DNA from: Deltaproteobacteria bacterium
GTDB taxonomy: Bacteria > Desulfobacterota > GWC2-55-46
DNA: 64,000 nucleotides
NCBI GenBank assembly: GCA_016182655.1
Contig: JACPGB010000012.1
Location: 62,001-126,000, forward strand
Direction: 5' to 3'
In this document: positions 3,123 to 30,161 of the stretch, piece by piece
Layout of the letters: each line of letters starts with the position of its first letter
Position numbering within the stretch: position 1 is the stretch's first letter
The notes under the pieces: generated by a model
The model's database searches: none
What the model was told of the DNA's origin: nothing
What the model saw: only the letters and a program-made list of their open reading frames with translations
Translations under genes and position numbers: made by a program

Positions 3123-3199
3123 GGGGCCGTAGTTAAGTCGGTTATAACGCTGGCCTGTCAAGCCAGAGGGCGCGGGTTCGAGTCCCGTCGGCCCCGCCA
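3123..3199 (+). tRNA. tRNA-Asp(GTC)
   Basis: Acceptor GGGGCCG/CGGCCCC, anticodon loop CTGTCAA, T-loop GGTTCGAGTCC, encoded CCA. Confidence 0.95.
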
Positions 3200-24883: not shown

Positions 24884-26227
24884 TTGATGGAGGCGGACTT
24901 GAATAAAGAGATAGTCATAATCGGCGGAGGGCTCGCGGGCTCTGAAGCCGCGTATCAGATACTTAAGCGCGGGGGCCGCGCGCGTATCATCGAGATGAAG
25001 CCGGTTAAATACTCTCCGGCCCATACGCTCCCGACATTCGCCGAGCTCGTCTGCAGTAACTCGCTTAAGTCCGACGCAATCGAGAACGCCTCCGGGCTAC
25101 TTAAGGAAGAGATGCGCCTCATGGGCTCGCTCGTGATCATGGCGGCGGAGGCCACACGCGTCCCAGCCGGGAAGACGCTTGCGGTCGACAGGACGGAGTT
25201 CTCCAAATACATAACCAACGAGCTGGAGCGCATGGGCGCGGTGATAGAAAGGGTAGAGGCCGTCTCCATACCCGAGGAGAGGCCGCTTGTCATCGCCACA
25301 GGCCCGCTCACGTCAGACGTTTTCGCGGCGGCCGTCTCAAACCTCATCGGAAGGGAGAGGCTCTTCTTCCATGATGCCGTCGCCCCGATCGTCTACAAGG
25401 AGTCCATCGATTTTGAGAAGGCCTTCAAGGCGTCGCGCTACGGCAAGGGTGGGGACGACTACATAAACTGCCCGTTCACCGAAGTCGAGTACGAAAGGTT
25501 CTACTCGGCGTTGACTACTGCCGAGGGGTTCGCGGGCCACGGGTTCGACAGTCTCAAATACTTCGAAGGCTGCATGCCCATAGAAGAGCTCGGGAGACGC
25601 GGCCCCAAGACGCTCCTCTTCGGGCCGATGAGGCCGGTCGGGCTCAGGGACCCGCGGACGGACGCGCGCCCGTTCGCGATCGTCCAGCTCCGTAGGGAAA
25701 ACCTCGAAGACACCCTCTACAACATCGTCGGATTCCAGACGAGGATGACTATCCCGGAGCAGAAGAGGGTCCTGAGGCTCATACCCGGCCTTGAGAACGC
25801 GGAGTTCGCGAGGTTCGGCAAACTCCACCGGAATAGCTACATCGATTCGCCGTCGCTCCTGCATAAGTCACTGCAATTGAAGGACGACAGTAATATTTTT
25901 TTTGCGGGGCAGATGACAGGCGTGGAAGGGTATGTGGAATCGGCCGTCTCCGGGCTCCTCGCGGGCATGAACGCCTGGAGACTGGCAGAGGGCAGGGAGA
26001 CCGCCGCCCCGCCTCCGACGACAATGACAGGCGCGCTCCTTGCGCATATAACCGCCCCGTCAAAGGACTTCCAGCCCATGAACGCGAACATGGGGCTACT
26101 CCCGGAACTGCCCGGCAAGGACAGGAGGGAGCGTCAGGCCGAGAGGGCCTTGAAAGATATGAAGGCCTGGGTCCTCGCCGGGTCCTTGCCGGACGGGCAA
26201 ATTTCGTCTCCAGCGCCAGAGGTTTGA
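24884..26227 (+). CDS. trmFO: Methylenetetrahydrofolate-tRNA-(uracil-5-)-methyltransferase TrmFO
   Basis: IVIIGGGLAGSEAAYQILKRGG, TFAELVCSNSLKSD, GQMTGVEGYVESAVSGLLAG. Last ~16 codons lie in the repeat at 26181. Confidence 0.93.
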   Translation: MMEADLNKEIVIIGGGLAGSEAAYQILKRGGRARIIEMKPVKYSPAHTLPTFAELVCSNSLKSDAIENASGLLKEEMRLMGSLVIMAAEATRVPAGKTLAVDRTEFSKYITNELERMGAVIERVEAVSIPEERPLVIATGPLTSDVFAAAVSNLIGRERLFFHDAVAPIVYKESIDFEKAFKASRYGKGGDDYINCPFTEVEYERFYSALTTAEGFAGHGFDSLKYFEGCMPIEELGRRGPKTLLFGPMRPVGLRDPRTDARPFAIVQLRRENLEDTLYNIVGFQTRMTIPEQKRVLRLIPGLENAEFARFGKLHRNSYIDSPSLLHKSLQLKDDSNIFFAGQMTGVEGYVESAVSGLLAGMNAWRLAEGRETAAPPPTTMTGALLAHITAPSKDFQPMNANMGLLPELPGKDRRERQAERALKDMKAWVLAGSLPDGQISSPAPEV

Positions 26228-26450
26228 GTTGATTATATGAGGCTCCGGATACTTTGGCCCCGCGCCGAGCGGTCCTTGCCGGACGGGCAAATTTCGTCTC
26301 CAGCGCCAGAGGTTTGAGTTGATTATACGAGGCTCCGGATACTTTGGCCCCGCGCCGAGCGGGTCCTCGCCGGACTGGCAAATCCGTATTAGTCGACTCT
26401 GCGTTTGAGAGTCCTGAGGAACCCGATGTGAAGTTGGCCCCGCGCCCAGC
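26181..26450 (+). repeat. Tandem array of three ~90 bp REP/BIME-like units
   Basis: Units 26181-26270 and 26271-26360 look identical except TATATGA/TATACGA; 26361-26450 is diverged. Each starts GGTCCT(T/C)GCCGGACGGGCAAA (or variant) and ends TTGGCCCCGCGCCGAGC (or variant). Confidence 0.9.
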
Positions 26451-26499: not shown

Positions 26500-27060
26500 A
26501 TGGATAAGAGAAAAGAGATACTCCTTACGGCTCTCCGCGAAAAGGACGAGCCTATAAGGAAGCTCGCGGCGGACGCCCTCGAAAAACTCGAGATAAGGTC
26601 CAAGCTCGAGCACTTCGAAAGAAAGATAGACTCCGGCGAGATGCTTGAGAAGATCCGCGCGGTCTACGCTCTTGCGGACTTAAAGGGCCCCAAGGTCGCC
26701 GAGCTCCTTTCAAAGGCCCTTAAGGACCCGGCCGAGGATGTCCGGGCCGCGGCGGTCCGTGTGCTCGCGAATAAGGGCGAGGCGGCTCTTCCGCTCCTCG
26801 TTGAGGCGCTTAAAGACCAGGCCCCGATAGTAGCGAGGGCTTCGGCCGACGCGCTCAGCAATTATCAGGACGCCAGACTTCTCGGCCCGCTCATGCAGGC
26901 GTTGAAGAACCCGGACATAGGGGTCGTCGAGAGGGCGCTCGACTGCATAGGGAGATTAGGGGACAAGAGGGCAGAAGAGGCGATGGCCTTCTTCGCGGTA
27001 AAGGGGAACAGGAAGCTCAAGTCCATTGCCATAAAGGCGCTGGGCGAGATGGACCGGTAA
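26500..27060 (+). CDS. HEAT-repeat protein
   Basis: Repeats such as LKDPAEDVRAAAVRVLANKGEAALPLLVEALKDQAPIVARASADAL. Confidence 0.8.
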   Translation: MDKRKEILLTALREKDEPIRKLAADALEKLEIRSKLEHFERKIDSGEMLEKIRAVYALADLKGPKVAELLSKALKDPAEDVRAAAVRVLANKGEAALPLLVEALKDQAPIVARASADALSNYQDARLLGPLMQALKNPDIGVVERALDCIGRLGDKRAEEAMAFFAVKGNRKLKSIAIKALGEMDR

Positions 27061-27087: not shown

Positions 27088-27120
27088 AAAGGCGGGACTT
27101 GAGAGTCCCGCCTTTTCATT
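27088..27120 (+). terminator. Terminator after the HEAT-repeat gene (possibly bidirectional)
   Basis: AAAGGCGGGACT-TGAG-AGTCCCGCCTTTTC followed by ATTTTTT. Confidence 0.8.
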
Positions 27121-27171: not shown

Positions 27172-28503
27172 TCAGACAGCCTGCGCCGCCTCTTTCTCGA
27201 AAAACGACCCGAGGTCCGTCGATGTCGTCGCGGGGTTGACCGTCGAGACTATCTCCTTGTCGGTCGTAGAGAGGTCCAATTCAAACGGGTTCTCGACTAT
27301 GACGCCTTCGGCGTCGTAGAGTATCTTTACTACAGGGCTCTCCTGCTTCTCCGCGTTCAGCTTCGTCACTATGCCGACCTCGTTCGTGGTGAGGCGGACC
27401 ATGGTGCCGACCGGGTAGACGCCTATCATATTGATGAAGGCTTTGAGCGTATCGGGATTGAAGTGCCTCCCCGAGAAGTTGTTCATGACCTTAATCGCTT
27501 CTACCGGGCTGTGGGGCTGCTGGTAGACGCGCAGCGTCGTGAGCGCGTCGTAGGCGTCAGATATCGTGATGAGCTGGCTTAAGGGATGGAGCGACGAGGT
27601 CGTCTGCGGATACCCCGAGTGGTCGTACTTTATGTGGTGCTCGTATATGAGCCTGCCGATGGTCTCGTCGAGCCCGTTCATGCGCTTGGCTATGTTCGAG
27701 CCCAGAAGCGGGTGCTCTTTTATCTTTTCCCATTCCTCGGAGGAAAGGCCGCCGGGCTTCCTGATGATGTTCTCGGCGACCCCGGTCTTGCCGACGTCGT
27801 GAAGGAGCGCCGCGACTCCGACCGCGTGGAGGTCGTCCTTGGGAAGCCCCATGGCTCTGCCGAGGGCGAGCGCCATGATGGAAACGTTGACCGAGTGGTT
27901 GTAGAGGTAATTGTCGTAGTTCTTTATCATGGTGAGGCCGAGGATGGCGTTCTGGTCCGAGAAGACCGTCTCGGTTATCTCATCGACTATGGTCTTTATG
28001 GGCTCGGACCTCGGGATCTTCCCCATCCTCACTTCGCCCATGACGTTCTTGACTACCTCAACGGCCCCGTTGTATATCTCGAGGACGTTCCTCTTGCCCA
28101 TGGGCACGGACTTCAAGGTTATGTGGGTCACGCCCTTTGTGTGGAGCTCCCTCTGCAGTTCCTTGCCCTGGACAGGCTGGCCCGCGAGTATGTCGAAGAC
28201 CGCGGTGAGTTCCTTTACGGTAGCGCCTCTCTCGAATATGATGGCGTCGACGTTCTTGTCCGCCATGTACTGGAGGACGTCGGGGTAGAGCTTGTCGCCG
28301 TCCTGTATCAAGGTATCCTCGAACGTGAGTGTTTCGTGCAATATGCCGATGGCGATGTTGTTCAAGGCCTTGAGCTCGTCGGATATGAGCTGGAAGGTCT
28401 TGTTCACGGGCGCGGCTATGGCCGGGTGCCCGGGCGGGTAGAGCTTTTTGCTTTTCAGCGCCGAGTTTATGGACTTAAGGATGAGTTCGCTTGAGTCACT
28501 CAT
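27172..28503 (-). CDS. HD-GYP-type phosphohydrolase with N-terminal YPxGHP domain (degenerate GYP signature)
   Basis: LLHDVGKTGVAENIIRKPGGLSSEEWEKIKEHPLLG and HHIKYDHSGYPQ; N-terminus contains KLYPPGHPAIAAPVNK. Confidence 0.85.
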   Translation of the reverse strand: MSDSSELILKSINSALKSKKLYPPGHPAIAAPVNKTFQLISDELKALNNIAIGILHETLTFEDTLIQDGDKLYPDVLQYMADKNVDAIIFERGATVKELTAVFDILAGQPVQGKELQRELHTKGVTHITLKSVPMGKRNVLEIYNGAVEVVKNVMGEVRMGKIPRSEPIKTIVDEITETVFSDQNAILGLTMIKNYDNYLYNHSVNVSIMALALGRAMGLPKDDLHAVGVAALLHDVGKTGVAENIIRKPGGLSSEEWEKIKEHPLLGSNIAKRMNGLDETIGRLIYEHHIKYDHSGYPQTTSSLHPLSQLITISDAYDALTTLRVYQQPHSPVEAIKVMNNFSGRHFNPDTLKAFINMIGVYPVGTMVRLTTNEVGIVTKLNAEKQESPVVKILYDAEGVIVENPFELDLSTTDKEIVSTVNPATTSTDLGSFFEKEAAQAV

Positions 28504-30107
28504 TTGCTTTTCTTCTCTCTTCCCTCAAGGATTCTTCTGCACGCGGTATAAAGCTCGACCGAGGCGTCATTGCAAGCCTCTTGGATGGCCTTGTATGCCT
28601 CCTCGGTGCCGATAGCGCCGAGCGAGTGGGCGGCGAGTATCCGCACCTCCTCGTTCGACTTTTTTCCGAACCAGACCTTCTTGAAGAGGAGCTTCGTCAG
28701 GTACGGCACCGCTTTATCGCTCCCTATGTGCCCGAGCGCCCTTATAGCCTCTCTCTTGGGCTCATGGGCCTCTCCGAGCGGCTCCTTCCTTAACGCTATC
28801 TCGCCGAGCAGGTCGACGACCGATGGGTCTTTGAGGACCCCGAGCGAGATTATGGCCTGCGCCACAATCGATGGGTCTTCCTCTCCAAGAGTCTTTATGA
28901 GTATAGTGGTCGCCCTCGGCCCGCCGATCTTCACGAGGCTTTTCAAGACCTCTTTCTTTATCCTCGGCTCGGGGTTAGAGTACGCCGTCTCTATCGCGTT
29001 AAGCGATTCCGGGTCCTTGAGCTCGCCGAGCAACCCGACCATCTGCCTTATTACGTACCATTCGGGGTGGTTGAGCCTCTCCTCGATGAGCGGCCTTACC
29101 GGCTTTCCGAAGCGGATTATGAGATTAAAGAGGTTTCGTCTCGTAACCGCGTCATCGGAGTCTGTTATCGCGTCAAGGAGCGCCCTTGCGGCTTCCTCTC
29201 CGGCGAAGATGAGGATGCTGTTTATCACTCCCCGGTGCCGCTCGTCCTTTAAGGCGAGCCTCTGCACCAGATAAATAATCATATCATGATTGAGAAAAGA
29301 CCTCAATCTCTCGGCGGCGAGCGTCCTTATGTCGTCGGCGAGCCTGGGGTGAGTGGAGAGGTGCTCGACGAAGACGAGGCACGCGGGGAATATCTCGTCG
29401 AGCCGCTTCTCCATGAGTATCGGCTCGGCCTTCTCCTTGAGCCTCACGGAGAGGTCCTGGTATTTGATGAAGTCCCTCTCGTTCCTGATGAGCGATAATA
29501 TTTCAGCGAAGGTCGTCTCTTCGGCCTGCTCCTCTTCCTTGGGCGGCGGGGGTTTTTCCTCTTCCTGCGACTGGGACTCCCCGGGTGCCTCTTCCGCCTT
29601 TTTCTTCTCCTCCGCGAGTTCCTTCCTCTCCTTCTCCTGCTTCTCCTCGAGCTCCTTCTTTATCCGGAGGAGGTCCTCGGGCCTTAAGGCGTTTATGAGC
29701 ACGCCGGTGACGTCCTTGAGCGCGAAGACCGCTTCGGCCCCGCCCTGCTCAAGAAGGCCGTCAGGCTCGAGCTTGATGATGGAAAGGAGGACCTTGAGCT
29801 CGGCGACGGTGAGCCTCGGCGAAAAGGTTATCTCCTTTATGCGCCTGAAGAATAGTTTTTTGGCGAGGGCGGCGACCTCGGCGCTTCCAGGCGCCACCGG
29901 GGTCTTGTCTTCGTAGAAGCCCTTCTGGTCTATCTTCCATTTTATCTCGCCCTGGACCTCGAGCGACTTTCTAAACAGCAGATAACATTTCTGAACGGCG
30001 GCGTCGAGCTGAGGATGCCCCTCAGGGTAAAAATTATGCATCTTGACAGCCTTGTTGAGTTCAATTAGTATGTTCGTGTAGCTCGGGATTTCTATAGACA
30101 TATCCAT
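28500..30107 (-). CDS. HEAT-repeat protein with N-terminal YPxGHP domain
   Basis: N-terminus NFYPEGHPQLDAAVQK resembles the adjacent HD-GYP protein. Acidic/Pro linker then HEAT repeats. Overlaps the HD-GYP start (ATGA). Confidence 0.75.
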   Translation of the reverse strand: MDMSIEIPSYTNILIELNKAVKMHNFYPEGHPQLDAAVQKCYLLFRKSLEVQGEIKWKIDQKGFYEDKTPVAPGSAEVAALAKKLFFRRIKEITFSPRLTVAELKVLLSIIKLEPDGLLEQGGAEAVFALKDVTGVLINALRPEDLLRIKKELEEKQEKERKELAEEKKKAEEAPGESQSQEEEKPPPPKEEEQAEETTFAEILSLIRNERDFIKYQDLSVRLKEKAEPILMEKRLDEIFPACLVFVEHLSTHPRLADDIRTLAAERLRSFLNHDMIIYLVQRLALKDERHRGVINSILIFAGEEAARALLDAITDSDDAVTRRNLFNLIIRFGKPVRPLIEERLNHPEWYVIRQMVGLLGELKDPESLNAIETAYSNPEPRIKKEVLKSLVKIGGPRATTILIKTLGEEDPSIVAQAIISLGVLKDPSVVDLLGEIALRKEPLGEAHEPKREAIRALGHIGSDKAVPYLTKLLFKKVWFGKKSNEEVRILAAHSLGAIGTEEAYKAIQEACNDASVELYTACRRILEGREKKSK

Positions 30108-30133: not shown

Positions 30134-30161
30134 ATATTAGCAAAACTGGCATGATTGTCAA
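30134..30161 (-). promoter_or_regulatory. Promoter for the HEAT/HD-GYP operon
   Basis: On the minus strand: TTGACA - 16 nt - TAATAT. Confidence 0.45.

Follow-up and report, generated by a model that had tools for sequence, protein, structure and literature searches.

Two adjacent genes in the 64,000-nucleotide stretch analyzed here (the window) encode proteins whose first ~135 residues are homologous, one continuing into an HD-GYP domain of the phosphohydrolase type and the other into an array of HEAT repeats. The pairing of these genes, their order and their overlap are conserved, the two copies of the N-terminal domain (the N-domain, marked by a YPxGHP motif) have been inherited together, and the catalytic residues of the HD-GYP domain are intact. 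On balance, we favor the hypothesis that the pair constitutes a two-protein cyclic-dinucleotide signaling module, in which an HD-GYP phosphodiesterase is served by a dedicated HEAT adaptor or regulator by way of the shared N-domain. This module appears to be undescribed; a literature search conducted mostly outside the subscription journals returned no account of a HEAT/HD-GYP pair. HD-GYP proteins are usually studied singly, and in many cases their controlling partner has yet to be identified; an adjoining HEAT protein with the same N-domain offers a specific candidate partner, amenable to testing, for an HD-GYP subclass that is widespread in a phylum whose signaling is poorly known.

Organization of the Locus

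The pair lies on the minus strand with the HEAT gene first, and a small HEAT gene converges on it from the plus strand. Features are given below in window coordinates, with the basis of each assignment in parentheses.

28500-30107, minus: HEAT-repeat protein with YPxGHP N-domain, first gene of the pair, 535 aa (ORF call and Pfam)
29682-30086, minus: N-domain of the HEAT protein, about residues 8-142, without Pfam, NCBIfam or PDB match (profiles and AF2)
30012-30029, minus: HEAT-protein YPEGHP motif, at the turn linking helix 1 to helix 2, with Y, P and H invariant (alignment and AF2)
29496-29672, minus: linker of the HEAT protein, charged and helical, then proline-rich, about residues 146-204 (sequence; AF2 helix at its start)
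28518-29495, minus: HEAT-repeat array, about residues 205-530 (Pfam and solved-structure matches)
28500-28503, minus: ATGA overlap of the HEAT gene stop and HD-GYP gene start (sequence)
27172-28503, minus: HD-GYP protein with YPxGHP N-domain, second gene of the pair, 443 aa (ORF call and Pfam)
28102-28497, minus: N-domain of the HD-GYP protein, about residues 3-134 (profiles and AF2)
28423-28440, minus: YPPGHP motif of the HD-GYP protein (alignment and AF2)
27418-27930, minus: HD-GYP catalytic domain, about residues 192-362, with HD..K and HHIKYDHSGYP, Y replacing PmGH E185 (Pfam, phmmer and alignment)
27172-27417, minus: C-terminal tail of the HD-GYP protein, about residues 363-443, without family assignment (sequence and Pfam)
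26500-27060, plus: small HEAT-repeat protein, 186 aa, lacking the N-domain (ORF call and Pfam)
30134-30161, minus: promoter-like site of the pair, TTGACA-16-TAATAT, with TG ahead of the second hexamer (consensus match only)
27088-27115, no strand: strong 12-pair stem-loop between the convergent HD-GYP and small HEAT genes, terminator-capable on both strands (consensus match only)

The output domains are assigned by clear family matches: HD_5 in the HD-GYP ORF (E 1.3e-21; PF13487 scores 77.5 bits against a cut-off of 27.2) and HEAT_2 in both the HEAT ORF (E 7.6e-32, 109.9 bits) and the small HEAT ORF (6.8e-25), the array of the larger protein also matching solved alphaRep and HEAT chains. The initial annotation had described an overlap of the HEAT stop with the HD-GYP start, and it is indeed seen at 28500-28503. 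The promoter-like site, identified by consensus match only, lies just 5' of the HEAT gene, and orthologue comparison places the start of the HEAT protein perhaps at residue 3 (MSIEIPSY). An upstream riboswitch was considered and rejected, since the sole Rfam matches in the window are two tRNA genes (2800-2872 and 3123-3196). Between TrmFO and the small HEAT gene, a 90-bp unit is present in 2.3 tandem copies (26179-26383); it is related to an interspersed repeat with ~60 matches listed across the genome of 2.9 Mb (40 of 144 candidates were scored).

A Homologous N-Terminal Domain without a Catalogued Counterpart

Pairwise BLASTP aligns residues 13-115 of one protein with residues 8-110 of the other without a gap (E=5e-8), and a profile-profile comparison of 53 HD-type with 52 HEAT-type domains spans 135 columns at a probability of 99.4% (E=8.5e-22). 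The AF2 models of the N-domains (mean pLDDT of 87 for the HD-GYP protein and 90 for the HEAT protein) have a common order of elements, namely helix, helix, two or three strands, helix, strand, helix, helix, strand; the secondary-structure state is equal at 90% of positions in the register given by sequence, which scored best among 25 offsets. The Y, P and H of YPxGHP (YP..H) are invariant in both families, as a joint alignment comprising 43 sequences shows. The by-eye alignment of the initial annotation was right overall, with the exception of the segment GVTHITL/GVLINAL, which it placed about two residues out of register relative to the profile alignment. That annotation had made its case depend on whether the N-termini differ in predicted fold, and AF2 gives them the same one; together with the homology, this supports its proposal of a duplicated domain common to a phosphohydrolase-type protein and a scaffold.

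Neither domain family gave a consistent Pfam or NCBIfam match, and the PDB fold matches of the two N-domain models were not significant (best Foldseek E of 0.15 and 0.58, TM about 0.2). PelD, the weak top match at these values, amounts to no similarity and was rejected as a relative; a catalogued identity (GAF, PAS, TPR or other) was set aside for want of any family or solved-fold match. The only strong PDB profile match of the HD-type N-domain is Octarellin V.1, which we take to be a designed protein and hence dismissed as an identity for the domain; the PDB search with the HEAT-type profile gave nothing below 0.65. As our searches of Pfam, NCBIfam and the PDB yielded no counterpart, the N-domain is a candidate new family and a target for structure determination.

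Conserved Pairing across the Phylum

Tabulated coordinates from 97 relatives place the HEAT orthologue in 64 genomes, the HD-GYP orthologue in 65 and both in 64, and in 61 of the 64 genomes holding both, the genes are adjacent on one strand in the order HEAT to HD-GYP. The three exceptions are two pairs cut by contig ends (G017 and G020) and one whose genes lie on different contigs (G044). In many families, the gene ends within pairs overlap or almost touch. A profile of both N-domains finds the domain in 153 of 394 sampled genomes, all from one phylum, with a second copy no more than 3 kb away in 118 of the 150 best-listed matches; where that copy was missing, the fetched loci mostly show an HD-GYP gene alongside with a weaker match to the domain. 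A lack of co-occurrence elsewhere had been put forward as the observation that would count against the pair; the genes instead lie next to each other in a constant order across the class, as well as in many further families of the phylum.

The distinct N-domain ORFs comprise 145 HEAT and 102 HD-GYP proteins (nearly all of the 26 others are fragments truncated at a locus boundary), and no third kind of output is fused to the domain in the intact ORFs of the fetched loci, which were picked from matches, so that these architecture counts are not a random sample. A profile search of the pair's own genome returned only two copies of the N-domain. One scan of named genomes matched only close relatives, all of them Deltaproteobacteria MAGs; among named plasmid relatives, there was one generic HEAT match and none for the HD N-domain.

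Variations on the arrangement also occur. A second pair type, seen at eight loci, joins HEAT proteins of ~720-790 aa to shorter HD-GYP proteins (~370-425 aa). N-domain HEAT genes without an adjoining HD-GYP gene are found in a few cases, among them G434, G303 and G331; in G303, the gene that follows the HEAT gene resembles a glycosyltransferase by eye. Extra N-domain HD-GYP genes with no detected HEAT partner alongside are found in G291 and G327. Pairing is thus not obligate everywhere, as HEAT-only loci (e.g., G434 and G303) and HD-only loci (G291 and G327) indicate.

Evolutionary History of the Two Copies

A tree of 95 domains (48 HEAT copies and 47 HD copies) contains a well supported branch with 48 of 48 HEAT copies on one side and 43 of 47 HD copies on the other. 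The four remaining HD copies (families f20, f25 and f81) have long branches and are placed on the HEAT side; the AU test does not reject a tree with all HD copies in one clade (p=0.42). The branching order looks alike on the HEAT and HD sides, and the distances among HEAT copies and among HD copies correlate (r=0.82, with 0 of 2000 permutations as high), a correlation that common ancestry, adjacency and, in part, species history would also yield. This pattern agrees with a single ancient divergence of HEAT-type from HD-type domains, earlier than the separation of the families of the phylum, with subsequent co-inheritance of the copies.

A Variant HD-GYP Subclass with Intact Metal Ligands

The HD-GYP domain is clearly related to that of PmGH (phmmer E 6.6e-25). 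All tested metal-ligand positions (H203, H235, D236, H264, H289, H290 and D316), as well as K239, GYP and R325, show no variation across 54 sequences. Where PmGH has E185, a Y is found, as in the Y/F subfamily, which Bellini et al. predicted to be binuclear (PMC4159591). Relative to the published HD-GYP consensus, HHExxDGxGYP (PMC4159591), HH and GYP are kept, the D position holds D or N, E never occurs and G occurs rarely. Because of this departure, we file the domain as a variant subclass whose substrate or activity could differ. Nearly all members carry the motif HH[ILMV]xx[DN]xxGYP; HHE occurs in 0 of 102 HD-GYP proteins with the N-domain and in 9 of the 9 other HD-GYP proteins that a motif scan listed in the pair's own genome. 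That genome encodes 11 HD-GYP domains and has 19 GGDEF matches, so that cyclic-dinucleotide signaling is likely in use, and the HD-GYP domain of the pair has the lowest Pfam score of the 11 (80 bits vs. 110-141).

A Small Convergent HEAT Gene

No N-domain is present in the small HEAT protein, the two copies in its genome being those of the pair. Its orthologue is present in 59 of the 97 relatives, and 44 of those 59 have it convergent with the HD-GYP gene and a short distance away; the initial annotation had remarked on a third HEAT gene converging on the pair, and the convergent position is itself conserved, which indicates that the gene belongs to the neighborhood. The gene is a conserved neighbor in other families too: it is the third most widespread gene family in 41 wider neighborhoods (20 loci), some of them with flanking genes other than RadA and TrmFO. 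Judged by its conserved position only, the small HEAT protein may be a third component.

A Proposed Module and Its Alternatives

We hypothesize that the HD-GYP protein, a predicted metal-dependent phosphodiesterase by its sequence, most likely has c-di-GMP or another, related cyclic dinucleotide as its substrate, and that the shared ~135-residue N-domain most likely mediates assembly, as homodimers, as heterodimers or as both. The HEAT protein, by analogy with RcbAB (discussed below), would be a dedicated adaptor or regulator of the HD-GYP protein, and a ligand of the HEAT array would control or place the phosphodiesterase. A broader and more tentative proposal, which we regard as possible though clearly less probable than the module itself, is that the pair represents a phylum-wide heteromeric phosphodiesterase with a changed GYP loop (HH[ILMV]xx[DN]xxGYP), possibly a substrate preference of its own, and a HEAT adaptor joined to it by a new, uncatalogued fold that duplication placed in both subunits, the small HEAT protein being a third partner.

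The main alternative, which we consider rather unlikely, is that the N-domain is a ligand sensor that was duplicated into two separate outputs, both responding in parallel to one signal and neither binding the other. HD-GYP proteins do often carry an N-terminal domain of the sensor type (such as the GAF domain in PmGH; PMC4159591), the invariant YP..H falls, in the models, in a loop between two helices that could serve as a binding site, and a parallel sensor would sit comfortably with loci that have only the HEAT or only the HD gene. However, the near-constant adjacency, fixed order, frequent overlap and co-inheritance of the copies exceed what such a sensor would need, no third kind of output accompanies the domain in this sample and its likeness to known sensor folds was never significant. 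It is far less probable that the two genes are ordinary neighbors, adjacent as a matter of genome structure and sharing a domain that an old duplication left in both without giving them a common role. Several relatives do have RadA and TrmFO as flanking genes, and part of the gene order is therefore inherited background; yet the pair persists at loci with different flanks (several other neighbor sets) and across many families, its gene ends overlapping or almost touching.

The remaining alternative concerns the enzyme: the HD-GYP protein could be a receptor and the HEAT protein the effector that it switches, on the model of DvhD, an HD-GYP domain that serves as a c-di-GMP receptor in the sulfate reducer Desulfovibrio (PMC13090378). 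The loss of the E of HHE throughout the subclass, and of the G of DGxGYP in most members, speaks for such a role. DvhD, however, lacks the HD motif and the double histidine, whereas all tested metal-ligand positions are invariant here; moreover, alanine changes in GYP and at R314/K317 of PmGH caused no substantial drop in hydrolysis, whereas most changes to metal ligands abolished it (PMC4159591). With the metal ligands intact, we judge a receptor role like that of DvhD improbable and retain the phosphodiesterase module as the preferred reading.

Comparison with Known Systems

DvhD from Desulfovibrio vulgaris (9RBZ/9RC0; PMC13090378) is, like the second protein of the pair, an HD-GYP protein, in its case from a sulfate reducer and binding a cyclic dinucleotide; it differs in its periplasmic dCache and PAS domains, its lost metal ligands and its action as a receptor. 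PmGH from Persephonella marina (4MCW/4MDZ/4ME4; PMC4159591) has an HD-GYP domain with the same metal ligands except one and a domain N-terminal to the catalytic one, but this domain is GAF where ours is the YPxGHP domain, and PmGH has E185 and HHERWDGTGYP where the present protein has Y and HHIKYDHSGYP; the word HEAT does not occur in the PmGH paper (PMC4159591). DUF3391 (PF11871; Bd1817, 3TM8; Leptospira, PMC12943098) resembles the YPxGHP domain in being uncharacterized, of similar length and placed ahead of HD-GYP; no match to PF11871 at E<=0.01 came from the 53 HD-type or the 52 HEAT-type N-domains, and Foldseek did not list Bd1817 among its matches to the N-domain model.

The nearest parallel in organization is RcbA/RcbB of Vibrio vulnificus, a bicistronic pair in which RcbA (TPR and an unknown region) and RcbB (TPR-GGDEF) bind through their shared N-terminal TPR domains and control the cyclase (PMC12282931). 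Like the HEAT/HD-GYP pair, it is bicistronic, has the same N-terminal domain in both proteins and combines a cyclic-dinucleotide enzyme with a partner that has a different C-terminal region; its authors report it to be conserved across taxa (PMC12282931). The shared domain there is TPR and the enzyme a GGDEF cyclase, whereas here a YPxGHP domain links an enzyme of the HD-GYP phosphodiesterase type to a HEAT partner, and the RcbA/RcbB interaction has been demonstrated (PMC12282931), whereas we infer that between the HEAT and HD-GYP proteins. Having neither TPR nor GGDEF, the pair is not a member of the RcbAB system, but it may work like one.
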